Positions 43,490 to 63,829 of a DNA stretch of 64,000 nucleotides are shown here, in pieces (position 1 is the stretch's first letter; each line of letters starts with the position of its first letter). Both the position numbers and the translations under genes were made by a program. This stretch comes from Limisphaerales bacterium. GTDB lineage: Bacteria; Verrucomicrobiota; Verrucomicrobiia; Limisphaerales; UBA1096. Under the pieces are notes generated by a model. It searched no databases, had not been told where the DNA came from, and saw nothing but the letters and a program-made list of their open reading frames with translations. The stretch is from assembly GCA_004213515.1 (NCBI GenBank), contig SHAK01000002.1, positions 1 to 64,000 on the forward strand. Reading direction: 5' to 3'.

Positions 43490-44266
43490 TTGTATTATCT
43501 CTTGATGAAAAACTTTAGACAGCAACTAAAGAGCGGTAAACCACTAATTGGTACTATGGTAACGCTCCCTACCGCTGCAACTGCAGAAATCCTAGCAGAC
43601 ATCGGTTTTGACTGGCTCTTTCTTGATGCAGAGCACAGCTCTTTAAGTTATAATGATATACAAGGCATTCTTCAGGCTGTTGGGGACAAAGTCTCGTGCG
43701 TAGTACGTCTTTCTTCCGCTGAAGAAGTGCCAATAAAGAAAGTCCTCGATCTTGGGGCAGTTGGTATTATTGCTCCTCAGGTTAATACAGTAGAACAAGC
43801 CAAAGATGTGGTTCGCTTTTCACGCTACTCACCGGATGGAACTCGTGGTGTAGGTCTAGGGAGAGCTCACGGCTACGGCATGCAATTTGAAGATTACATG
43901 AAAAAAGCCAATGATAATGTTGCAGTAATTGTTCAGGCGGAGCATATACAGGCTGTCGAATGCATTGAGTCTATAGTCAAAGTCAAAGGTATCGATGGTA
44001 TTATGCTTGGACCATATGACCTTTCAGCAAGCCTTGGTAAAATGGGTAAGATTAGGGATGAAGAAGTCACTAATGCTATGGATCGCGTCTTCAAGGCATG
44101 CAAATCATCCAAACTTTCCATTGGTTACTTTGGGGTAAGCACCACGGCAGTCGAACCTTACATTAAAAAAGGATACAATTTAATTTTGGCAGGTGTTGAC
44201 ACACTACACTTAGGAAACGCCGCTAAGGATTTATTCAATGAACTCAAAGCAATATCAAAGGATTGA
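43490..44266 (+). CDS. HpcH/HpaI family aldolase
   Basis: GTMVTLPTAATAEILADIGFDWLFLDAEHSSLSYNDIQ, VIAPQVNTVEQAKDVVRFSRYSPDGTRGVG, GIDGIMLGPYDLSASLG. Confidence 0.94.
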   Translation: MYYLLMKNFRQQLKSGKPLIGTMVTLPTAATAEILADIGFDWLFLDAEHSSLSYNDIQGILQAVGDKVSCVVRLSSAEEVPIKKVLDLGAVGIIAPQVNTVEQAKDVVRFSRYSPDGTRGVGLGRAHGYGMQFEDYMKKANDNVAVIVQAEHIQAVECIESIVKVKGIDGIMLGPYDLSASLGKMGKIRDEEVTNAMDRVFKACKSSKLSIGYFGVSTTAVEPYIKKGYNLILAGVDTLHLGNAAKDLFNELKAISKD

Positions 44267-44269
44267 TCT

Positions 44270-45517
44270 ATGAGCGGATACCTTTTTAAAAATGTAATTA
44301 TACTAAATTGTACAGGAGAAAATCCATTCCCAGGAGATGTATTAATTGAAGGCAATAAGATTATCAAAATCGCTCGTAACGGCGGGTCCCTTAAACAGAA
44401 AAATATCCAGATAATCGATGGAGAAAACCGGATGACTCTAATGCCCGGACTAATTGAATCGCATGCACATTTGAGCATTAATAATACCGACGATCTGACA
44501 GCATTGGGTCGCATTCCACCTGAAGAGCACACTTTGTTAACTATGCAAAACGCTCGACTCTACCTTGACCATGGCATTACCAGTTGTATTAGCGCAGCAT
44601 CAGCTAAACCACGTTTGGACATAGTAATTCGTAACGCCATTGAAAATGGCGAAATCCCAGGGCCTCGCCTCCTTGCTGCCACTCCTTGGCTTACAGTCAC
44701 TGGCGGATTAGGCGACATGAGAACACTTCATATGCCTAAAGTTGATTCGATGGCAATTATGGCAGACGGCCCAGAAGAATACCGCCGCCTCACAAGAGAA
44801 TTGATTCGTGAGGGCGTAGATATAATCAAACTAGTAATCTCAGGGGACTCTTTTGTACCGCATGCAGGTTCTGAAACAACGATAATGAGTGAGGAGGAAG
44901 TGGAAGCAGCGGCAAAAGTGACACATGCACATGGTAAAAGGTTAAGCGCTCACGCTCGTAGTGCTAAGTCGGTCAAGCTCTGCGTTCGCCACGGCATAAA
45001 AGTAATTTATCACGCCAACTATGCAGACGAGGAGGCTTTCGACTTATTAGAAGCTAACAAAGACTGGTTATTTGTAAGCCCTAATATCGGATTTACTGCA
45101 ATTGCAGCATATGAGGGTTCAGATTGGTTTACAGAGGAACAAGTTCAAAGTATGGGATTTCGCGAAGAACTCGATAGTGCGATTAAAGGAATTCAAGAAT
45201 TGATGAAACGTGGTGTGAGGATTTTAGGAGGTGGAGATTATGGATTTATGATTACTCCACATGGTCAAAACGCTCGAGATTTGGACCACTTCGTTCGTCA
45301 CTGCGGAATGACAAACATGGAGGCAATTCTCACAATGACAAAAAACGGAGGAGAAGCAATGGATATGCCGAACGAAATAGGGCAAGTGAAGGAAGGGTTT
45401 CTTGCTGATCTTTTATTGGTTAATGGCGACCCCCTTTCAAATTCCAAGTTACTGCTTAACAAAAATAACCTTCATACCATTATGAAGGGTGGCGTTATCC
45501 ATAAGCTTTCCTCATAA
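44270..45517 (+). CDS. Amidohydrolase family protein (imidazolonepropionase-like)
   Basis: MPGLIESHAHLSINN, KRLSAHARSAKSVKLCVRHGIKVIYHANYADEE, LGGGDYGF, GQVKEGFLADLLLVNGDPL. Confidence 0.92.
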   Translation: MSGYLFKNVIILNCTGENPFPGDVLIEGNKIIKIARNGGSLKQKNIQIIDGENRMTLMPGLIESHAHLSINNTDDLTALGRIPPEEHTLLTMQNARLYLDHGITSCISAASAKPRLDIVIRNAIENGEIPGPRLLAATPWLTVTGGLGDMRTLHMPKVDSMAIMADGPEEYRRLTRELIREGVDIIKLVISGDSFVPHAGSETTIMSEEEVEAAAKVTHAHGKRLSAHARSAKSVKLCVRHGIKVIYHANYADEEAFDLLEANKDWLFVSPNIGFTAIAAYEGSDWFTEEQVQSMGFREELDSAIKGIQELMKRGVRILGGGDYGFMITPHGQNARDLDHFVRHCGMTNMEAILTMTKNGGEAMDMPNEIGQVKEGFLADLLLVNGDPLSNSKLLLNKNNLHTIMKGGVIHKLSS

Positions 45518-52553: not shown

Positions 52554-53666
52554 ATGAGCGACAAAAAATTTAATATTGCCATCGTTGGCCTCGGATTCGG
52601 GGCTGAGTTTATTCCCATTCATCAGGCACACCCAAATGCCAACCTTATTGCTGTATGTCGGCGCAATGAACTAGAGATGAATGCTGTAGCAGATCAGTTC
52701 GGGATCGAAAAACGCTACACCGACTATGATGAATTGCTTAAAGATCCTGAAATCGATGCAGTTCATATCAACTCCCCTATTCCAGATCATGCCCCACAAT
52801 CCCTAAAAGCTCTTCGTGCTGGCAAACACGTTATGTGCACTGTGCCTATGGCAACAACTATCGAGGAATGTGAAGAGTTGTGTAAAGCAGTCGACGAAAC
52901 GGGCCTCAAGTACATGATGGCCGAAACAGTCGTTTATAGCCGTGAATTTCTTTTTATTAAGGATCTTTATGATAAAGGCGAATTAGGTAAACTCCAATAT
53001 CTTGCCGCAAGTCACCCTCAAGATATGGATGGATGGCCTAGTTACTGGGAAAAGATGATACCTATGCACTACGCCACTCACGTTGTTAGCCCTTGCCTTG
53101 GTATGGTAAATGGATTGGCGGAATACGTAAGTTGTTTTGGAAGCGGCACCGTTAGAGACGATATAGCTCAAAAAAGTGGTAACAAGTTTGCTGTAGAGAG
53201 TTGCCATATCAAAATTAAAGATAGTGACCTGTCAGCACATATATGGCGCTTCCTTTACGATGTAGCCCGTCAATACCGTGAAAGCATCGATGTATATGGA
53301 AGCAAAAAGAGCTTTGAGTGGACGCTCGTCGAAGGTGAACCTAGCGTCTTACATGTAGCCAAACGTCCAGAAGCTGAAATTCCTGAAAAAGTAGAAATTC
53401 CTGACTTCGCACATTTATTACCTGAGCCAATACAAAAATTCACTCAAAGTATTGAGGATGCAGATCATCTTTCCTTTGTACAAGGTGGGGGCCATGGAGG
53501 AAGTCATCCTCATATGGTAAATGAATTCTTTAGTGCTCTAGTCGAAGACCGAGATCCTTGGCCAAACGCCAAGACATCCGCTAACTGGACCTGTGTAGGC
53601 ATTTGCGCCCACCAAAGTGCAGAACAAGGAGGTACTCGCATCAATCTCCCATCTTTTACTATATAA
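52554..53666 (+). CDS. Gfo/Idh/MocA family oxidoreductase
   Basis: [108 protein letters not shown]. Confidence 0.94.
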
Positions 53667-53691
53667 ATTTTTACTCTTAAATCTAAAAACT

Positions 53692-55257
53692 ATGACTAAC
53701 GAAAACACTATAAGTGAAGTGAATGCCAAGCGGCTCCTATGGGCTGGTTTCATGGCCATTCTAGCAGCCGGTGTCGGGTTCGCCATTCGTGGCGGCATCT
53801 TCGATAATTGGGGAGACGAATATGGATTCACTGGATTACAGCTGGGTGCAATTGGCGGAATGGGATTCTCAGGATTCTGTTTTGGCATCATCATTGGAGG
53901 CGTTGTTTGCGATAAAATAGGATACGGAAAACTAGTTTTTGTTGCATTCGCTTTTCACATCCTGTCTGCAATTATAACTTTTACTGCAGGCGGAGATACA
54001 GCGTACACTAGCTTGTATTGGGGAATGTTCTGCTTTGCTTTTGCTAATGGCACTTTGGAGGCTGTTGCTAATCCTTTGGTGGCTACATTATTCCCTGAAA
54101 AACGAAACCATTACTTAAACATATTACATGCTTCTTGGCCTGCTGGAATGGTTATTGGAGGTGTGATTGGATGGGTTTTAGACGATAAACTTAATTGGAG
54201 TTGGCAACTTCAATTATCACTATATTTAATACCTACCGTTATTTATGGAATAATGTTTCTAGGTCAAAAATATCCAAAATCCGAAGCGGCTGAAAAAGGA
54301 CTTAGTCTCGGAGAAATGTTCAAAGATGTCGGCATACTTGGCGGATTAATTATTTGCTATTTATTAGTATTATTTTTCCAAGGAATTCTACCTGCTGATT
54401 TAAGCTGGGTTGCGTGGATTATCGGCGGAGGGCTTTTGATCTCAATTGCTGTAATAACAGGATTTGCAGTTGGGCATTGGTTAATATTCGTACTTTTTAT
54501 TGCACATGCTCTAGTCGGCGCGGTCGAATTAGGTACTGACGGTTGGATTCAAAATATCACCGGAAACATTCTAAGTTCAGAAGAAGGAAAGATTCTTTTC
54601 GTTTGGACATCATTAATGATGTTTGGCCTTCGTTTCTGTGCTCATTGGATGGAAAAAACTCTTAATCTTAAACCTGTCACTCTTCTTTTTGTTTGTGCTG
54701 TTTTAGCATGTATAGGATTAAATTTAGTTAGTACAGCAACTGCTTTCACGGGAGCCATTATTGCTTTAAGCGTATATGCTTTTGGTAAAACGTTCTTCTG
54801 GCCTACTATGTTAGCAGTTGCATCTGACAGATTTCCTAGATCAGGAGCTATTGCAATTAGTATTATGGGCGGAATTGGTATGATGTCATCGGGCTTACTA
54901 GGTTCACCTGGATTAGGTTATGCAAAAGATCGTTTTTCAGGAGAAGCACTTAACGAGAGTAATCCTGCTCTTTACCAAGAGTATAAAGCAGAAACCCCTA
55001 GCAAGTGGTTATTCTTGAATGAAGTGAACGGTATAGATGCAACAAAACTCGGTGAGATTTCAAAGAAGGAAACAGCTGAAAGAACAGACAATGAAAAAGC
55101 TGTAGCTCAAGCTTCAATTGAAGGAGATCGAAGAACGCTTAAAGCTGATTCATTTATACCGGCAGCAATGGCTGTTATTTATTTATTACTATTCTTTTAC
55201 TTCAAAGGTATTGGAGGATACAAGCCACTTACCATTGATGATCTTAAAAAGGAATAA
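53692..55257 (+). CDS. MFS transporter (sugar permease-like)
   Basis: Polytopic membrane protein with MFS pattern ([23 protein letters not shown]). The track start 53617 overlaps the upstream gene; ATG at 53692 ([20 protein letters not shown]) is more likely. Confidence 0.9.
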
Positions 55258-55321: not shown

Positions 55322-56578
55322 TTAAAGACCTAGCCTTCGAGTATGATAAGCAAGCCGTTGATCTGCTGTCATCGATGAAAAATCAGGACGTCCATTAACA
55401 TCTTTTGGCCAGTCAGAATTGGTGACACTTTTAGATTTAGTTTCAGATCTGCTTTGTTTGGCTATGGGGTTTTTTGTTACATTTATGCTAGTTTTGCACC
55501 CATCATCCCCATAACGCATAGATTGTTCAGTAAGCTCAAGATCCTTTTCTAGTGTCCGGTTTGGAATAATACCTTTGCCCTGTAATACACCATGATAGGC
55601 ATGAACAGCTTCCTCTGGTAAAATCTTATCTTCAGAAATAAGCCTCAAAAACTCAATAAACGCCAACTGATGTTCGGCGTTATTAATCTTGCGACCAAAG
55701 AGAGCCAATCTTGCTCCATATTTTTTAGCATCATGCAATAATCTAAAAGCGTCATATGTAGTCCCAGCACTACCCCCCAACACGCCAACAGCCATATTTG
55801 AATCGTACTGGCAAATCTCTTCCATATATCGTGGGCCATGATAAACAATTTTAAGAAAAACAGGCCTACCAACTTCTGTTATTCCAGCGAGTGTTCTTAA
55901 GATCTGATCATTAATAAACTCACCCAATTTATTCTCTGGAATTCCACTATCAGTATTAGGGTCAAAAACTTCTAAAAAGTATCGAAATTTTTTGCGCTCA
56001 GCCTCTTTACGAAATTCATGAAACATCTCTATTGTTCTTTTATCCTTCTCAAGATCATTGAGATAAGTAACCGAGTAAAGTCCCAGATTTGCACCAGGAA
56101 ATTCATCAGTACTGCGATCACAATCAAGTTGACCGCACTGAATATGGTCAATACTAGCAGACCGAAATGGCTGAGCAGGCTGACTCAAATAATTGCCATG
56201 CCGTACAGCCCACACATCAGTTGCATCATTTGCCCTAGCAGCTGGAGTAATGTGTGAATTACTAAAGAGCCCCTCCTTAATAGTAAGCTGTTCATTAACA
56301 TGGGCTGACATAAGCATAATATCAACCAAACCTTGCGCCACAACTTCACGAATAATGTCTAAAAATTCGGGTAAATTACGATGACCAAACTCGTCACGAG
56401 TCCAGATTTCAGGCGAAAACTGTGCTGGATGTAATCCCAACTTTGAAAGATAACGGCGCTTACCAAGTGCTGGAATACCAAAAGCCATATCCGGATCCTT
56501 CGCATCGGCAATGATGAATGAATCTCGCGCCGCAGGGTTTTCCCTGTAAGCTGCAAGCTTGGAGTCTAGCGATTTCAT
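55322..56578 (-). CDS. BMC-associated TIM-barrel (class I aldolase-like) protein of unknown function with linker and C-terminal tail
   Basis: Last gene of the BMC operon; TIM-barrel-like phosphate-site pattern (MAVGVLGGSAGTTYDAFRLLHDAKKYGARLALFGRKI); low-complexity linker then DFSSMTADQRLAYHTRRLGL tail. Confidence 0.7.
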   Translation of the reverse strand: MKSLDSKLAAYRENPAARDSFIIADAKDPDMAFGIPALGKRRYLSKLGLHPAQFSPEIWTRDEFGHRNLPEFLDIIREVVAQGLVDIMLMSAHVNEQLTIKEGLFSNSHITPAARANDATDVWAVRHGNYLSQPAQPFRSASIDHIQCGQLDCDRSTDEFPGANLGLYSVTYLNDLEKDKRTIEMFHEFRKEAERKKFRYFLEVFDPNTDSGIPENKLGEFINDQILRTLAGITEVGRPVFLKIVYHGPRYMEEICQYDSNMAVGVLGGSAGTTYDAFRLLHDAKKYGARLALFGRKINNAEHQLAFIEFLRLISEDKILPEEAVHAYHGVLQGKGIIPNRTLEKDLELTEQSMRYGDDGCKTSINVTKNPIAKQSRSETKSKSVTNSDWPKDVNGRPDFSSMTADQRLAYHTRRLGL

Positions 56579-56605
56579 TAGGCTCTCATCATAGAGCTAA
56601 AAAAC

Positions 56606-57682
56606 TCAACCCTTAAGGCGATTAAGAATTTCATCTGTAACTGCTTTCACAACTGTTTCAGCCTCTGGATCAGTTGCTTGATTAGCATTCCCTACAGATT
56701 GATTAGGCACCTCACATGTAACACCTGGGCGCCACTCATTATTATCACACAACTCACATTCCTTTAAACCAATTCTTGGGTCAGGAACGCCCAACTTTTG
56801 TTTTATGTCCAGAAGATCCTTTAAGTGTTTAGGTGAGAATTGTTTTGGCTTAACCCCTAGCTGAGTCGTAACAAGTACAGTTCGGCAATAGGCTTCAACA
56901 ATCTCCATCTTGAAATATGCATCCTCAATGGTATTACTCCAAGAAACAACACCGTGATTCTCCATTAAAATAGTGTTATGCTGATCAACTAACTCTGCAA
57001 CCTTAAGTCCCATCTCAGGAGTGCCCGGTGTTTCATAAGGTGCAATCGGAACACGACCAATAAAAACTTCTATCTCAGGAATCATACAAGTTGGTGGTTG
57101 TACTCCCGCCACTGCAAATCCGGTTGCATAAGGAGGATGCGCATGGGAAACAGCTCTTGCCTTTGGCTGTGCCTTCATGATCGAAAGGTGCATTAGAATT
57201 TCACTAGTGCGATTCTTAATGCCTGCTAATTGATTTCCTTCAAGATCTACCAAACATAAATCTTCGGGTTTCATAAAACCTTTGGAGACAAGAGTAGGAG
57301 TGCAAAGCACGACATCTTCAGTTAAACGAATAGAAAGATTACCACCATTTCCATCAACATATGCCCGCTGCCACAAACGACGTCCCACATCACAAATCTG
57401 CTCCTTTAATTCATGTACTGCAGGACTATTAAACAACCTTTCAATATCTGTTTTTGAGGAGTTTGCCCGAACAGATTGATCAATTCCATTTTCGTCTAGC
57501 GCCCCGTTATTTTTAGATGTTGTAGCCGATACATGGCCTCCAGATCTCTTGACGAGCTTCACATCTAATTCATTAAGGCGATCACGTGCTGAAGGAGTAA
57601 TTACCGCATTCGAAGGAATGCTTTCAAGTCCTCCTCCTCGATGTAGTTCTTCAATATCCTTTACACTATAAACTTTCTTCAT
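56606..57682 (-). CDS. Class II aldolase (fuculose/rhamnulose-phosphate aldolase-like) with BMC-type N-terminal module and C-terminal tail
   Basis: GNGGNLSIRLTEDVVLCTPTLVSKGFMKPEDLCLVDLEGN, AVSHAHPPYATGFAVAG, ILMENHGVVSWSNTIEDAYFKMEIVEAYCR; N-terminal VITPSARDRLNELDVKLVKR; C-terminal EAETVVKAVTDEILNRLKG. Confidence 0.92.
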   Translation of the reverse strand: MKKVYSVKDIEELHRGGGLESIPSNAVITPSARDRLNELDVKLVKRSGGHVSATTSKNNGALDENGIDQSVRANSSKTDIERLFNSPAVHELKEQICDVGRRLWQRAYVDGNGGNLSIRLTEDVVLCTPTLVSKGFMKPEDLCLVDLEGNQLAGIKNRTSEILMHLSIMKAQPKARAVSHAHPPYATGFAVAGVQPPTCMIPEIEVFIGRVPIAPYETPGTPEMGLKVAELVDQHNTILMENHGVVSWSNTIEDAYFKMEIVEAYCRTVLVTTQLGVKPKQFSPKHLKDLLDIKQKLGVPDPRIGLKECELCDNNEWRPGVTCEVPNQSVGNANQATDPEAETVVKAVTDEILNRLKG

Positions 57683-57694
57683 TTGATATTTAAA

Positions 57695-57997
57695 TTATTT
57701 CTTTGGTTGATGATTCACACTATCTACAAGAGCAACATTAATTGCGTCTATTGGAGTTCGTTCCGTAAACGGAGATGCCGCTTCCCTCCCCTCAATAAAT
57801 CCAATTGTCTGTCCAACATCTCCACCAAGTGCATCATAAACTACTAAACTCGGTTCTGCTGTAATACCCATTGGAGGATTATCGCCGCTCTGAAACTGAT
57901 CACGGGTATAAGGGTTAACGATTAGCCAACGTCCACCTTCAAAAGCTGAAATTGACTGACTGAAGGTTACACGTCCAATGACTTTACCTAATCTCAT
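57695..57997 (-). CDS. BMC-P (EutN/CcmL-type) shell vertex protein
   Basis: MRLGKVIGRVTFSQSISAFEGGRWLIVNPYT...LVVYDALGGDVGQTIGFIEGREAASPF...PIDAINVALVDSV. Confidence 0.93.
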   Translation of the reverse strand: MRLGKVIGRVTFSQSISAFEGGRWLIVNPYTRDQFQSGDNPPMGITAEPSLVVYDALGGDVGQTIGFIEGREAASPFTERTPIDAINVALVDSVNHQPKK

Positions 57998-58272
57998 GCT
58001 CTTTTTTCTTCCTCCATTCGGTCTATTATTCCTGTTATCATCATTCGAACTGGACTGCGTTTATCTCCTACCACGTTTCTTGCAGCAGCACCATCAGACG
58101 TTACAACCACTCGCTGATGCATTCCTGCACCATAAGGGTCAATGGCAATAATAGGTGTACCATCATTTTCACCCTCGAGATCAATTGGCTGACAAACAAC
58201 CATTCGCCAACCATCAAGGCTTGAATGCTTGCGTGTTGCAACAACGTTACCTTCAACTCGAGCAAGGCGCAT
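57994..58272 (-). CDS. BMC-P (EutN/CcmL-type) shell vertex protein
   Basis: MRLARVEGNVVATRKHSSLDGWRMVVCQPID...IIAIDPYGAGMHQRVVVTSDGAAARNVVGDKRSPVRMMITGIID; 4-bp overlap with the next BMC-P gene. Confidence 0.94.
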   Translation of the reverse strand: MRLARVEGNVVATRKHSSLDGWRMVVCQPIDLEGENDGTPIIAIDPYGAGMHQRVVVTSDGAAARNVVGDKRSPVRMMITGIIDRMEEEKRA

Positions 58273-58274
58273 AT

Positions 58275-59747
58275 CTAGTATATTCTTAAGTTATCAACCA
58301 TAACACAGCGACGCACACGGGTGAATGTTCTCGGATTAGTCACGCCTTCTCCAGTCGGGGTTGCAATTGAAAAACTTAAGTAACCTTCACCTCCCAAACC
58401 TAAGCCAGCCATAGAAGGGCCATTCTTAACAAATAGTGTGGTATCAAGCGCTCGCCCCATAGCTGTCATATTATTGACATCGTGCGAGTGGATGATCGCC
58501 GTATGGCGATAATTGTGCTCTGACTTCTTTGCTGCAGCGATACCTTCATCAATAGTACGAACACGAACTATCGGAAGCATTGGCATCATCTGCTCTTCTT
58601 CAACAAAAAGATGATCAGGACGTGTCTCTGCAAAAAGCAGTTGTGTTCCAGAAGATACATTGACACCGGCAGCCTGAGCCAAAACTGAGACATCCTTACC
58701 TATAAAATCCTTATTCGTTGCAGCATGGCCACACCCTGCGCCTTTTCCTTCTGGAAATACAAATGCAGCTTGCGTCAATGCATCAAGCTGAGAGTTATTT
58801 AATCGGACCGCAGCGTGACGCTCCATTGCGCCCATGAAATCATCAGCGATACTATCCAAAACAAATATCTGTTTTTCACCAATGCAAAGAAGATTATTGT
58901 CATAGCTTGCCCCCTGCACTACACAGCGCGCTGCACGATCTATATCTGCCGTATTATCGACAAGTACAGGAGGGTTGCCTGGTCCTGCACAGATGGCTCG
59001 CTTTCCCGTCTTCATTGCAGCCGCAACAACTCCTGGCCCGCCAGTGACACACAACAAACGAACGTTTTCGTTGCCGCACATTTCCTTAAACGAATCAAAA
59101 GTTGGTTGCTCGATTATACATGCAATGTTTTCGATACCAATTGAACGATAAATTGCTTCATTAAATTTACGAACTGCCATTGCAGCACACTGAGCAGCGG
59201 CTGGATGAGCGTTGAATACCACTGCATTACCTGCTGCAACAATATTAACAATATTCCCAGCAAGTGTAGGGATCGAATGAGTAGAAGGAGTAACTGCACC
59301 AACTACACCAAATGGGGTATACTCTTCCAATGTGATTCCATTATCTCCGCTTCGCCCTTCAGGCCTAAGCCACTCAACACCAGGAACATCACGAATAATA
59401 TGAAGCTTCTCGATCTTATGATCTAATCGTCCGATTTTGGATTCCTCAAGCTCAATTCGCCCCCAATCATCAGCATTGGTCTCACACATGCCTTTAACGA
59501 TTTCAATGATTTTTCGGCGCGCCCCAATACCCTGATTTCGTAGTTGAATAAAAGCCTCTGCAGCTGCTTCGCAGGCGTCATTTGCATTTTTAAAAACACC
59601 AAAATCCTTACTACTGCTGCCTTTGCCGCTGCAGCCACAAGATCCATTATCACTTTTTACATCTTGAATGGAAGAGTCACCACCCAAGCGCCCTAAAACA
59701 TCTTGGATGACATCTTTGATCAACGCTTCGTTAACTGCATTAGCCAT
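58275..59747 (-). CDS. CoA-acylating aldehyde dehydrogenase (PduP/EutE-like) with N-terminal encapsulation-peptide-like helix
   Basis: MANAVNEALIKDVIQDVLGRLGG N-terminal helix; TPSTHSIPTLAGNIVNIVAAGNAVVFNAHPAA, ICAGPGNPPVLVDNTADIDRAARCVVQGASYDNNLLCIGEKQIFV. Confidence 0.94.
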   Translation of the reverse strand: MANAVNEALIKDVIQDVLGRLGGDSSIQDVKSDNGSCGCSGKGSSSKDFGVFKNANDACEAAAEAFIQLRNQGIGARRKIIEIVKGMCETNADDWGRIELEESKIGRLDHKIEKLHIIRDVPGVEWLRPEGRSGDNGITLEEYTPFGVVGAVTPSTHSIPTLAGNIVNIVAAGNAVVFNAHPAAAQCAAMAVRKFNEAIYRSIGIENIACIIEQPTFDSFKEMCGNENVRLLCVTGGPGVVAAAMKTGKRAICAGPGNPPVLVDNTADIDRAARCVVQGASYDNNLLCIGEKQIFVLDSIADDFMGAMERHAAVRLNNSQLDALTQAAFVFPEGKGAGCGHAATNKDFIGKDVSVLAQAAGVNVSSGTQLLFAETRPDHLFVEEEQMMPMLPIVRVRTIDEGIAAAKKSEHNYRHTAIIHSHDVNNMTAMGRALDTTLFVKNGPSMAGLGLGGEGYLSFSIATPTGEGVTNPRTFTRVRRCVMVDNLRIY

Positions 59748-59790
59748 ATTGATTCCTATAAGTTATATTATTTATTATGATCAATCAGAT

Positions 59791-60114
59791 TTAGATATGA
59801 TCGTCTTTTTTTGCATCAAAAATTATCTGACCTAATACATCCACAGTGTCAACAATGCCCACAACTACAGCATCCACAGGTGCGCTCTTCATATTTGGCG
59901 CCAACCGCGCAGAACTGCCTTGGGTAAACATTATTAACTCCCCTTCTCCGGCACCAACAGAGTCGACTGCTATAATTGTATTTTTTCCGGGGCGAAATTT
60001 GGCTGGATCGCTTTCGTCAACCAATTGAGGACGAACAAGAAGTAACTTTCGGCCACTCAATGCTTCATCCTTCTTGGTCGCGACAACTGACCCCTCTACT
60101 CGGGCAAGGAACAT
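59791..60114 (-). CDS. BMC-P (EutN/CcmL-type) shell vertex protein
   Basis: MFLARVEGSVVATKKDEALSGRKLLLVRPQL...IIAVDSVGAGEGELIMFTQGSSARLAPNMKSAPVDAVVVGIVDTVD. Confidence 0.95.
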   Translation of the reverse strand: MFLARVEGSVVATKKDEALSGRKLLLVRPQLVDESDPAKFRPGKNTIIAVDSVGAGEGELIMFTQGSSARLAPNMKSAPVDAVVVGIVDTVDVLGQIIFDAKKDDHI

Positions 60115-60126
60115 TCCTGTACCTCC

Positions 60127-60414
60127 TTATTTCTTGGTTTTTGGTAAAACCGTAGCGACGTCACTATGTGGACGCGCTATTACGTGCACACTTACAACTT
60201 CACCTCCAATGGCTTTAACGGCTTCCGCACCAGCATCAGTTGCGGCTTTCACTGCAGCAACATCTCCGGTAACACAGGCGCTAACGAGAGCATTGCCAAC
60301 TTGCTGCATCGGCCCAGACAACTCCACATTTGCGGATTTTAGCATGGCGTCGGTTCCTTCAACCAAGGCAACAAGGCCTCGAGTTTCTATCAATCCTATA
60401 GCTTGTTGAGACAT
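60127..60414 (-). CDS. BMC-H hexameric shell protein (pore-region motif GNA)
   Basis: [81 protein letters not shown]. Confidence 0.96.
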   Translation of the reverse strand: MSQQAIGLIETRGLVALVEGTDAMLKSANVELSGPMQQVGNALVSACVTGDVAAVKAATDAGAEAVKAIGGEVVSVHVIARPHSDVATVLPKTKK

Positions 60415-60447
60415 ATTATTTCTTTGTTTTTGTTATTTTAAAAAAAG

Positions 60448-61638
60448 TTAGTTTTGTTTGTTTTCTAAAAATCGCTTCACTTCACGAGCCACCACTAGCT
60501 CCTCATTAGTTGGTATTACCAACACCTTAACTGTAGAATTTTCCGAGCTAATAATGGCTTCTTCTGCTTTTATGGAACCATTCTTGGATGGATCCAATTC
60601 AATTCCTATCTGGTCCATATTTGCACAAATTTCTGCACGAATTTCTGCACGGTTTTCACCAATTCCAGCAGTAAACACGAGAGCATCTAGTCCATTGAGT
60701 TGAGCCATGTATGCTCCAATCCAGTGGCGTACTGATTTCACAAATACTTCCAAAGCCAATCGAGCATTTGCATCTCCACTGTCTGCCGCAGATTGTATAT
60801 CGCGAATATCATTGTACTTTCCGCTCAATCCCTTAAGCCCACTCTCATTACACAACGCATGTTCAACTTCATCAACCGAGAGACCGTCTCGTCGCATCAT
60901 GTGAAGCACAGCCATAGAGTCTAGATCCCCTACACGATTATTATGTGGTAAACCAGACTGAGGGCTTAGGCCCATACTATTACCAATTGCCGCTCCATTG
61001 AGAATACCAGTAACAGAAGAACTACCACCAAGGTGACATGAAACCACTCTGAACATTGAACCCTCAACTTGTGAACTCACCTCATCAACATAAAGATTAC
61101 GCGCACGGCTAGCCACGTCTTCTCGACCTAGAATTTCTGCTGACCTTTCCGCAATAAACTTGTGACTTGCTCCATGAAAACCCCATCGCCGGACTCCAGC
61201 ATCATACCAACTTTTAGGTACTGCATAGCGGCGGGATGACTCTGGCATCCATTGGTAAAAAGCCGTTTCAAATAGACCCACTAAAGGTGTCTCTGGCATC
61301 TTCTCCGCAAATAACCTTATACCACTAATATAAGGCGGATTATGAGCGGGCGCGACGTAGTTGCATTTTTCCATGGACTCAACGACTTGTTCCGTTAACT
61401 CAAGACAACCAGTAAGCCCCTCGGCCATAATAGTCTTGAATCCAACCGCATTAAGATCAGCCTCAGAGGTAATCCACCCTCCCTCCTTCAATTCAGACTG
61501 CACTTGCTCAATTGCCGCAGAGTGATCATTGACACGTTCAATGCCACCCTTAACTAACAGCTCTCCTTCACCGCTTGAAAAATCAAACAAGCGATATTTC
61601 ATAGAAGTAGATCCGAGGTTAGCAATGAGAATTTTCAC
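60448..61638 (-). CDS. ackA: Acetate/propionate kinase family protein
   Basis: MKILIANLGSTSMKYRLFDF, RRWGFHGASHKFIAERSAEIL, VVSCHLGGSSSVTGILNGAAIGNSMGLSPQSGLPHNNRVGDLD, DALVFTAGIGENRAEIR. Confidence 0.95.
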   Translation of the reverse strand: MKILIANLGSTSMKYRLFDFSSGEGELLVKGGIERVNDHSAAIEQVQSELKEGGWITSEADLNAVGFKTIMAEGLTGCLELTEQVVESMEKCNYVAPAHNPPYISGIRLFAEKMPETPLVGLFETAFYQWMPESSRRYAVPKSWYDAGVRRWGFHGASHKFIAERSAEILGREDVASRARNLYVDEVSSQVEGSMFRVVSCHLGGSSSVTGILNGAAIGNSMGLSPQSGLPHNNRVGDLDSMAVLHMMRRDGLSVDEVEHALCNESGLKGLSGKYNDIRDIQSAADSGDANARLALEVFVKSVRHWIGAYMAQLNGLDALVFTAGIGENRAEIRAEICANMDQIGIELDPSKNGSIKAEEAIISSENSTVKVLVIPTNEELVVAREVKRFLENKQN

Positions 61639-61676
61639 GACTGTTTAAACCAATCGGTTGGCTATGCAAGAATGTA

Positions 61677-61955
61677 TCAAGTTAACCAATCGCCTAATCC
61701 CTTTAAATCCTCATGAGGACGAGGAATAACTTGAACACTGATAACTTCTCCAACATCTGCCGCAGCGGCCGCACCTGCATCAGTAGCTGCCTTTACTGCT
61801 GCTACGTCTCCTCGATAGAAGCCTGTTACTAAACCACTGCCAACTTTATCCCAGCCGGTCATTGTAACATTTGCCGCTTTTAAAGCAGCGTCGCTAGCTT
61901 CCATTAAGGCACAGAAGCCCTTGCACTCAATCATTCCTATTGCTTGTTCAGCCAT
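61677..61955 (-). CDS. BMC-H hexameric shell protein (pore-region motif GSG)
   Basis: [82 protein letters not shown]. Confidence 0.96.
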
Positions 61956-61977
61956 AATATTTTTTTCGTTTTAAGTT

Positions 61978-62268
61978 TTATTTGTTAGCTTTACCGGGTG
62001 CTGTACTAAAAGCCTTTAATAATTCCTCGTGAGGACGAGCAATAACATGCGAACTAACCAATTCGCCCACTCGTGCTGCAGCATTGGTTCCCGCATCAAC
62101 GGCTGCCTTAATACTGCCTACGTCTCCTTTGGCTAACACGGTAATTAATCCGCCACCAATTGGGACGGTCTTTACCAAACTCACGTTAGCTGCCTTGACC
62201 ATTGCATCGCTGGCTTCAACACTGCCAACGTATCCCTTGGTCTCGATCATTCCTAGTGCTTCACTCAT
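61978..62268 (-). CDS. BMC-H hexameric shell protein (pore-region motif GGG)
   Basis: SEALGMIETKGYVGSVEASDAMVKAANVSLVKTVPIGGGLITVLAKGDVGSIKAAVDAGTNAAARVGELVSSHVIARPHEEL. Confidence 0.96.
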   Translation of the reverse strand: MSEALGMIETKGYVGSVEASDAMVKAANVSLVKTVPIGGGLITVLAKGDVGSIKAAVDAGTNAAARVGELVSSHVIARPHEELLKAFSTAPGKANK

Positions 62269-62297
62269 AATGTTTTTATTTTACGTTTAAAATTTGA

Positions 62298-62975
62298 TTA
62301 TTTAACCAGCTCACAAGGTGTGTCCGGTTTTAAATTCACAGAGTTGCCTTCGTCAGTATCAATATGCACCTCAAGTTTAAAACTATCATCTACTCGCACT
62401 AACATCTCATCAAAGGTTACCGCGCATGGTCCGCCGACTTTTAACTTCATTCGGTCACCAGCCGACACGCTATAAAATGCTGCATCGTCAGAATTCATAT
62501 GTACATGGCGCTCAGCTCTTATTATACCATCAGGCATTTCAAAAAAACCTTCAGGACCCATAAGCATACCACCAGGAGTTCCTTCTATCTTGCCGGACTG
62601 GCACAACGGAATATCAAAGCCAAGCGCAATTGCATCTGTATATGCTAGTTCAACCTGATTTAATGTTCTGCATGGTCCAAGAATACGCAAATTAGATATA
62701 ATACGACTACGGGGACCAACTAAAGTCACTGTCTCTTTAGCAGCAAACTGCCCGTCCTGATATAACCACTTCATCGGCGTAAGTTGATGATCCTTGCCAA
62801 AAAGTGATTCAACCGCTTCCTGAGTAAGATGACAGTGACGCGCGCTAACATTAACCACCAAAGGATTGGGTGCCTGTCCAGTGGCGGGCACTGTCTTACC
62901 CATTCGCTGGTAAACCGCTTGGCGAACTAAATGTTCCACCACTGCGCGATGAACTTTGTTAGACTGACTCTCCAT
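62298..62975 (-). CDS. pduL: PduL-type phosphate propanoyl/acyltransferase (PTAC)
   Basis: PLVVNVSARHCHLTQEAVESLFG, RTLNQVELAYTDAIALGFDIPL, GPEGFFEMPDGIIRAERHVHMNSDDAAFYSVSAGDRMKLKVGG; N-terminal amphipathic segment VHRAVVEHLVRQAVYQRMG. Confidence 0.94.
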   Translation of the reverse strand: MESQSNKVHRAVVEHLVRQAVYQRMGKTVPATGQAPNPLVVNVSARHCHLTQEAVESLFGKDHQLTPMKWLYQDGQFAAKETVTLVGPRSRIISNLRILGPCRTLNQVELAYTDAIALGFDIPLCQSGKIEGTPGGMLMGPEGFFEMPDGIIRAERHVHMNSDDAAFYSVSAGDRMKLKVGGPCAVTFDEMLVRVDDSFKLEVHIDTDEGNSVNLKPDTPCELVK

Positions 62976-63010: not shown

Positions 63011-63048
63011 ATGATAGTTCGTCAACAAAAAACTTGCAAAATCTATCA
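63011..63048 (-). promoter_or_regulatory. Candidate BMC operon promoter with overlapping inverted repeat
   Basis: Minus strand TTGCAA (63034-63039), 17-bp spacer, TATCAT (63011-63016); 6-bp inverted repeat TGATAG (63012-63017) / CTATCA (63043-63048). Confidence 0.4.
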
Positions 63049-63070
63049 ATTTCTACCAAATTATTTGCTT

Positions 63071-63829
63071 ATGCAGGCGGAAGAACGCCAATTTTTGATC
63101 GAACAACACCTTCAGAAGGTTGAATTTGCCTCGCTTGAAGAACTTTCTGAGAAGGTTGATGTTTCTATTTCTACTGTCAGGCGTGATCTGACCTTACTTG
63201 AAACCAAAGGTACTATTAGAAGAACGCACGGCGGAGCACGCTTAATTACTCCAAAATCTGATGAATTTACCTTTAGCGCGAGGGATACTCATCAATTAAC
63301 CGAAAAGGACTTGATCGGTCATGCTGCGGCGTCATTAATAAAACCTAACCAAGGAGTCATTATAGATGCCGGAACTACTGCTTATCACGTTGCCAAGCAT
63401 TTAGGAGGAAAAGCCTCGCATATTATTACAAACTCATTACCAGTAGCTAATCATTTTGGCTCAGACAACAGTGTCGAAGTACTGGTAACAGGCGGAGTGA
63501 TTTATCCAAGACTTGGAGTACTTGTGGGGCCACTGGCAGTCGAATCTCTCTCAATGATGCATGCCGATATAGCTATTATGAGTGGCGGTGGCATTACACT
63601 TGATGGCGTTACCAATTCCCACGCATTACTAATAGATATACAACGCGCCATGCTGAAGTCCGCACAGCATATAATTTTTTGTCTGGACCACACTAAGTTT
63701 AGCCGCCGCTCAGTCTCTCATCTATGTGAAATAAGTGCCATTGACACTGTAGTTACCGACAAGCAATCTCCAAAAGTTCTTGTCGAACAACTTAAGCAAT
63801 CAAATACAAAAGTAGTTATTGCGGAATAA
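63071..63829 (+). CDS. DeoR-family transcriptional regulator, divergent from the BMC operon
   Basis: MQAEERQFLIEQHLQKVEFASLEELSEKVDVSISTVRRDLTLLETKGTIRRTHGGARL; GVIIDAGTTAYHVAKHL; IIFCLDHTKFSRRS. The track's start at 63011 falls on the candidate promoter; ATG at 63071 preferred. Confidence 0.93.
   Translation: MQAEERQFLIEQHLQKVEFASLEELSEKVDVSISTVRRDLTLLETKGTIRRTHGGARLITPKSDEFTFSARDTHQLTEKDLIGHAAASLIKPNQGVIIDAGTTAYHVAKHLGGKASHIITNSLPVANHFGSDNSVEVLVTGGVIYPRLGVLVGPLAVESLSMMHADIAIMSGGGITLDGVTNSHALLIDIQRAMLKSAQHIIFCLDHTKFSRRSVSHLCEISAIDTVVTDKQSPKVLVEQLKQSNTKVVIAE

Follow-up and report, generated by a model that had tools for sequence, protein, structure and literature searches.

A class I aldolase-like protein with a conserved C-terminal tail, a probable second aldolase of the PVM compartment in Limisphaerales

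Why should an operon for a compartment that is thought to use a single signature enzyme end in a gene for a second protein of aldolase type? The signature aldolase of PVM BMCs (Planctomycetes-Verrucomicrobia, fucose/rhamnose) belongs to PF00596, and this class II aldolase is the only signature enzyme named in the studies compared here (PMC4207490, PMC8217296). The window analysed here, a stretch of 64,000 nucleotides from a Limisphaerales bacterium, carries a BMC operon whose final gene, Q, had been set down in a preliminary description as an uncharacterised TIM-barrel/class I aldolase-like protein with an encapsulation tail. We consider it probable that Q is a class I ketose-1-phosphate aldolase recruited by its tail into the PVM lumen as a second aldolase.

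Gene Q and the operon that it closes

Q (55322..56578, minus strand; ATG at 56578, stop at 55322) encodes 418 aa and starts 27 bases downstream of the class II aldolase gene. All the sequence stretches quoted for it in the preliminary description, which gave no strand, are present on the minus strand. The protein consists of a core reaching to ∼Y356, a variable linker rich in Ser, Thr, Ala, Lys and Pro (residues ∼357-387; 55418..55510, minus strand) with a conserved NPLA-like patch at 370-373, and a conserved tail, the putative encapsulation peptide (residues 388-418, SDWPKDVNGRPDFSSMTADQRLAYHTRRLGL; 55325..55417, minus strand). ALFGRKI (residue 298), earlier taken as the end of the core, is followed by ∼58 more core residues. 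In an alignment of 59 Q homologues, columns of at least 90% identity account for 219 of 356 positions in the core, 1 of 31 in the linker and 11 of 31 in the tail, and this contrast is not due to chance.

The other genes of the operon lie on the same strand. In the order of transcription they encode a PduL-type phosphotransacylase (PF06130; 62298..62975), two BMC-H shell proteins (61978..62268 and 61677..61955), an acetate/propionate-type kinase, AckA (PF00871; 60448..61638), a third BMC-H (60127..60414), a BMC-P shell protein (59791..60114), a CoA-acylating aldehyde dehydrogenase (AldDH) of the EutE/PduP type with a helical N-terminal extension (58275..59747), two further BMC-P proteins (57994..58272, in an order conserved across loci, and 57695..57997, EutN/CcmL) and the class II aldolase, the PVM signature enzyme, which has N- and C-terminal extensions of its own (PF00596; 56606..57682). 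A DeoR-family regulator is divergent from them (63011..63829, plus strand). The PVM BMC gene set (PF00596 aldolase, AldDH, PduL, AckA, BMC-H, BMC-P and DeoR regulator) is therefore present in the window. No lactate/malate dehydrogenase for NAD+ recycling was found in the window operon (55322-62975) or in the other Q-bearing PVM loci, and the operons of Q-bearing PVM loci have no dedicated Zn alcohol dehydrogenase. In two loci, L156 (8383-10754) and L193 (13931-15193), both dehydrogenase genes immediately follow the class II aldolase gene. PVM loci of the same order that lack Q have an unchanged operon core.

Several neighbouring features were also recorded. An MFS transporter and a GFO/IDH/MocA oxidoreductase (52554-55257) are convergent with the BMC operon, and this pair adjoins it across the genus (L032, L034, L036, L038 and L043). 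Further away, at 43490-45517, an HpaI/GarL-type aldolase (HpcH_HpaI) stands beside an amidohydrolase and other catabolic genes. Two loci from same-order genomes (L183 and L190) represent a different BMC locus, with distant AldDH and shell genes and no class II aldolase match.

Fold and predicted active site

A Pfam search with Q returned no family, neither DeoC (PF01791) nor Aldolase_II (PF00596), and sequence searches of the PDB with Q alone or with its profile gave no match. Among the NCBIfam models, residues 235-325 resembled TIGR01949 (DhnA-type class I aldolases) at an E-value of 0.026, far under the cut-off. As there was no Pfam match and the NCBIfam match was sub-threshold, we call Q superfamily-like and assign it to no named family.

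The AlphaFold2 model, built from 59 homologues of one narrow family and of moderate quality (pLDDT 68.9, pTM 0.67; low-confidence stretches at residues 29-67, 119-131 and 352-387), has eight core strands in the order of a (beta-alpha)8 barrel. Foldseek searches of the PDB with this model gave class I aldolases as the top matches, at a probability of 1.00, with TM scores (target) of at most 0.66 and large rmsd values. The best matches were LsrF, LacD tagatose-1,6-bisphosphate aldolase, the ADH synthase of M. jannaschii, fructose-bisphosphate aldolase and sulfohexulose-1-phosphate aldolase.

A more direct connection came from the phylum itself, where Pfam places two distant matches of Q (L150 and L151) in the DeoC family of aldolases. 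Alignment of the Q family with L150, a DhnA/LsrF-type aldolase, by hhalign gave an E-value of 7.5e-8 and placed K243 (codon at 55850..55852, minus strand) on the lysine of the IKTFYTG motif, which in turn aligns with the same motif of MJ0400 and LsrF. In the model, K243 sits in strand 6 (241-244). The structure paper on LsrF (PMC2728841) assigns the Schiff-base lysine to position K203, the role of general base to D57 and phosphate binding to G226, G227, G253 and R254. By relative position these residues match K243, D25, G268, G269, G295 and R296 of Q, D25 being placed by motif and not by structural superposition. All six are invariant in 77 sequences, tailed and tailless.

The assignment of Q to the class I (Schiff-base) aldolases is therefore well supported, the moderate model points to a barrel fold, and aldol cleavage through an imine would be the likely catalysis. 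The earlier description of the protein as TIM-barrel and class I aldolase-like is borne out by the eight-strand model, the Foldseek matches and the invariant K243 on strand 6; a predicted fold other than a TIM barrel, which would have counted against it, did not emerge. Of the two activities it had offered, aldolase or isomerase, the first is favoured and the second disfavoured.

Distribution of Q and of its C-terminal tail

We analysed the loci of the best 80 homologues, 78 of which are full-length. PVM BMC genes are present at 67 of the 80 loci, and in 64 the class II aldolase gene immediately precedes Q. The tail was found in all 78 full-length proteins. These figures agree with the predicted co-occurrence with PVM BMC loci, and run against the possibility of homologues mostly outside such loci and lacking the tail. 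Across 196 genomes of the same order, 114 have both Q and BMC shell genes, 7 Q only, 19 BMC only and 56 neither, so that shell genes occur in 114 of 121 genomes with Q and in 19 of 75 without it (Fisher p = 1e-24, uncorrected for kinship). Three of the seven Q-only cases are assembly gaps, as PVM operon genes lie on the same contig (the class II aldolase in L032, L033 and L043, with BMC-P and AldDH as well in two of them). Q is a lineage-specific, optional second aldolase of the PVM operon; 19 BMC genomes of the order have no detected Q. In one locus (L059, 9980-12279) Q is tandemly duplicated behind the BMC operon, with the tail retained in the second ORF too.

Thirteen of the 80 loci have no BMC gene, four of them on short contigs (L055, L079, L082 and L084). 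The remaining nine (L057, L061, L062, L070, L078, L094, L096, L102 and L104) carry tailed Q detached from the operon, and BMC shell proteins are encoded elsewhere in all nine genomes. In the tree, seven of these nine form a clade nested within the operon-linked sequences, which indicates that Q left the operon yet kept its tail. Of the indirect evidence for a role of the tail in the compartment, its retention by the detached copies, all in BMC genomes, is the strongest. Seven of the nine adjoin a ketohexokinase, a PfkB kinase or a lyxose isomerase. At locus L203 (6793-11138) a detached tailed Q has an alpha-L-fucosidase (PF01120) and an SSF symporter one gene away.

The tail has the consensus W-P-x4-G-x-P-D-F-x-x-M-x4-R-x-x-Y-x3-R-L, with rare substitutions. 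In the best 80 loci it is preceded by a linker of 21-84 residues rich in A, S, P and T. Within the linker, a patch around P371 (residues 365-373; 55460-55486, minus strand) reads V-x-V-R-N-N-P-L-A in relatives and is missing from the tailless ones. AlphaFold2 predicts a helix at 405-415, with the low-confidence stretch 352-387 ahead of it. The hydrophobic moment of this helix (0.47-0.51) was reached by 822 of 2000 shuffled versions, in a test of little power; as the encapsulation peptides presumed for the enzymes encoded nearby fare no better, the test does not discriminate. Thus, of the encapsulation architecture described earlier, the linker followed by a terminal helix and the contrast in conservation hold, while the amphipathicity is no higher than that of shuffles.

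Homologues of Q without the tail were found in 16 genomes outside the order, in other orders and classes of the phylum sample; they are 47-58% identical to Q and end near residue 357. The sampling covered the order and the phylum Verrucomicrobiota. Tailless Q also favours BMC genomes (13 of 16, against 34 of 278), but it sits outside the BMC operon. The tail is therefore a property of BMC-associated Q, and the tailless state of distant homologues outside the operon supports recruitment. On the tree, which was rooted at its midpoint only, tailed and tailless Q are one change apart, which implies a single gain (or loss) of the tail.

A search for further cargo found the tail on no other protein of the host genome. 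The search was extended to 35 more genomes, which had a BMC and either no Q or tailless Q, together with a few controls; no convincing case was found there either, and the two strong matches were small Q-like fragments. The tail is also unlike any presumed encapsulation peptide of the neighbouring operon enzymes. Together with its rigid invariant residues (W, P, PDF, M, R, Y, RL), which resemble a specific docking motif, and with an amphipathicity not above that of shuffles, this would suit a tail that serves for oligomerisation or partner binding, for instance docking to the class II aldolase, on a Q that works in the cytosol, alongside the BMC. We regard this explanation as unlikely. It does not account for a tail tied to BMC genomes even where Q is detached from the operon and absent from the tailless relatives, and attachment to a lumen enzyme would itself place Q in the lumen. 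The distribution of the tail suggests instead that it carries the enzyme into the shell.

Substrate clues and proposed role

The gene neighbourhoods of the tailless relatives bear on the substrate. At 17 of 18 tailless loci Q adjoins a sugar kinase (PF25270 prokaryotic ketohexokinase or PF00294 PfkB) and/or a D-lyxose/D-mannose isomerase (PF07385), and a DeoR regulator is frequent. Individual loci add an aldehyde dehydrogenase (L140), a glycerate kinase (L146) or mannosidase-type glycosidases (L133 and L134). At two loci, L137 (7940-12575) and L138 (4883-9715), the neighbours of tailless Q are a class II FBP-aldolase-like gene, a PfkB kinase and an isomerase that, among NCBIfam models, comes closest to sulfoquinovose isomerase SftI, though far under the cut-off. 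In one genome (G429; L136-L139) each of four tailless copies has a neighbourhood of its own, which suggests that their substrates have diversified. The isomerase-kinase-aldolase logic of these neighbourhoods points to a ketose-1-phosphate that would be cleaved to DHAP and an aldehyde, and by analogy with the relatives we infer a ketose-1-phosphate as the substrate of Q.

A closer carry-over of the substrate from the tailless relatives was dropped: ketohexokinase and lyxose isomerase were not detected in the genomes of the window genus, including its own genome (77% complete). That genome encodes a rhamnulokinase-like kinase (best family TIGR02627, below cut-off), which makes a 6-deoxyketose-1-phosphate the first candidate and a fructose-1-phosphate-like compound the second. 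A PfkB-type kinase was rejected as a Q-specific marker, because a search of 21 genomes found it in most, some of them without Q.

The preferred reading, a class I ketose-1-phosphate aldolase in the lumen, would work as follows. In Q, a member of a DeoC/LacD/LsrF/FbaB-like superfamily, K243 would form an imine with the C2 carbonyl of the ketose-1-phosphate, D25 would act as general base, and GG268-269 and GR295-296 would hold the phosphate, giving DHAP and a short 2-hydroxyaldehyde. Verrucomicrobiota of the Limisphaerales/Pedosphaerales type would have acquired the linker and tail on Q and placed it last in the PVM operon. Binding of the tail to the inside of the shell or to the enzyme core would bring cleavage into the lumen; the toxic aldehyde would pass to the shared AldDH, PduL and AckA to yield acid and ATP, and DHAP would exit. 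Q would then be a second signature enzyme, with a different chemistry from the class II aldolase and probably a different stereochemistry or substrate. Against this, Q looks redundant where a class II aldolase is already in the operon, a pairing that recurs in L137 and L138; the unusual tail with its unremarkable amphipathicity, the moderate model and the large Foldseek rmsd values also weigh on it.

The same pairing would fit an encapsulated Q that acts on a phosphorylated sugar by a different reaction of the DeoC fold, as a transaldolase, an LsrF-like thiolase or an epimerase, and so complements the class II aldolase; LsrF and ADH synthase, among the nearest folds, are not plain retro-aldolases. 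This explanation, which we judge improbable, would leave the cleavage step missing in several tailless loci, among them L136, L140, L141 and L144, where Q is the sole aldolase-like gene seen beside the isomerase and kinase genes. A catalytically dead structural or regulatory subunit, conceivable because the class II aldolase could cleave alone, is very hard to reconcile with the invariance of K243, D25 and the phosphate-site residues across tailed and tailless Q.

If Q is a second lumen aldolase, an order-wide lineage has added to its compartment a mechanistically unrelated class I enzyme with its own conserved tail. This raises the question of which extra sugars are processed inside the organelle by these abundant polysaccharide degraders, and whether cargo can be addressed by a rigid sequence motif as against a generic amphipathic helix. 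A cytosolic enzyme that gained such a tail would offer a clean natural case of organelle recruitment, and the tail could serve as a cargo tag. More tentatively, Q may cleave a fructose-1-phosphate-like ketose-1-phosphate within the shell, with AldDH, PduL and AckA also handling glyceraldehyde or glycolaldehyde and the tail acting as a new sequence-specific tag; the PVM organelle would then handle a second class of sugars besides 6-deoxyhexoses.

Comparison with known systems

We found no literature description of Q; the original 2014 characterisation of the PVM compartment lay outside this comparison and could mention it as a hypothetical protein. The window operon resembles the PVM BMC in its class II aldolase, AldDH, PduL, AckA, three BMC-H, three BMC-P and DeoR, and differs in having Q at its 3' end and in being without the lactate/malate dehydrogenase described for PVM. 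With LsrF, ADH synthase (MJ0400) and archaeal class I FBP aldolase, Q shares the predicted barrel, the Schiff-base lysine, the Asp base and the GG and GR phosphate site; it differs in its low identity to them (∼10-14%), its long low-confidence stretches, its tail and the lack of a Pfam DeoC match. LacD and the sulfohexulose-1-phosphate aldolases of the SqiA/YihT type are class I, DHAP-forming enzymes matched by the Q model in Foldseek (8tnf, 3jrk), but they have no sequence-level match to Q. The DeoR-aldolase-PfkB kinase neighbourhood of the tailless relatives recalls the yih operon. Encapsulation peptides are defined as a short terminal helix after a flexible linker (PMC8217296). The tail of Q resembles those of BMC cargo in being a predicted short terminal helix behind such a linker, whereas its motif is conserved far more rigidly and is unlike the tails of the enzymes encoded beside it.
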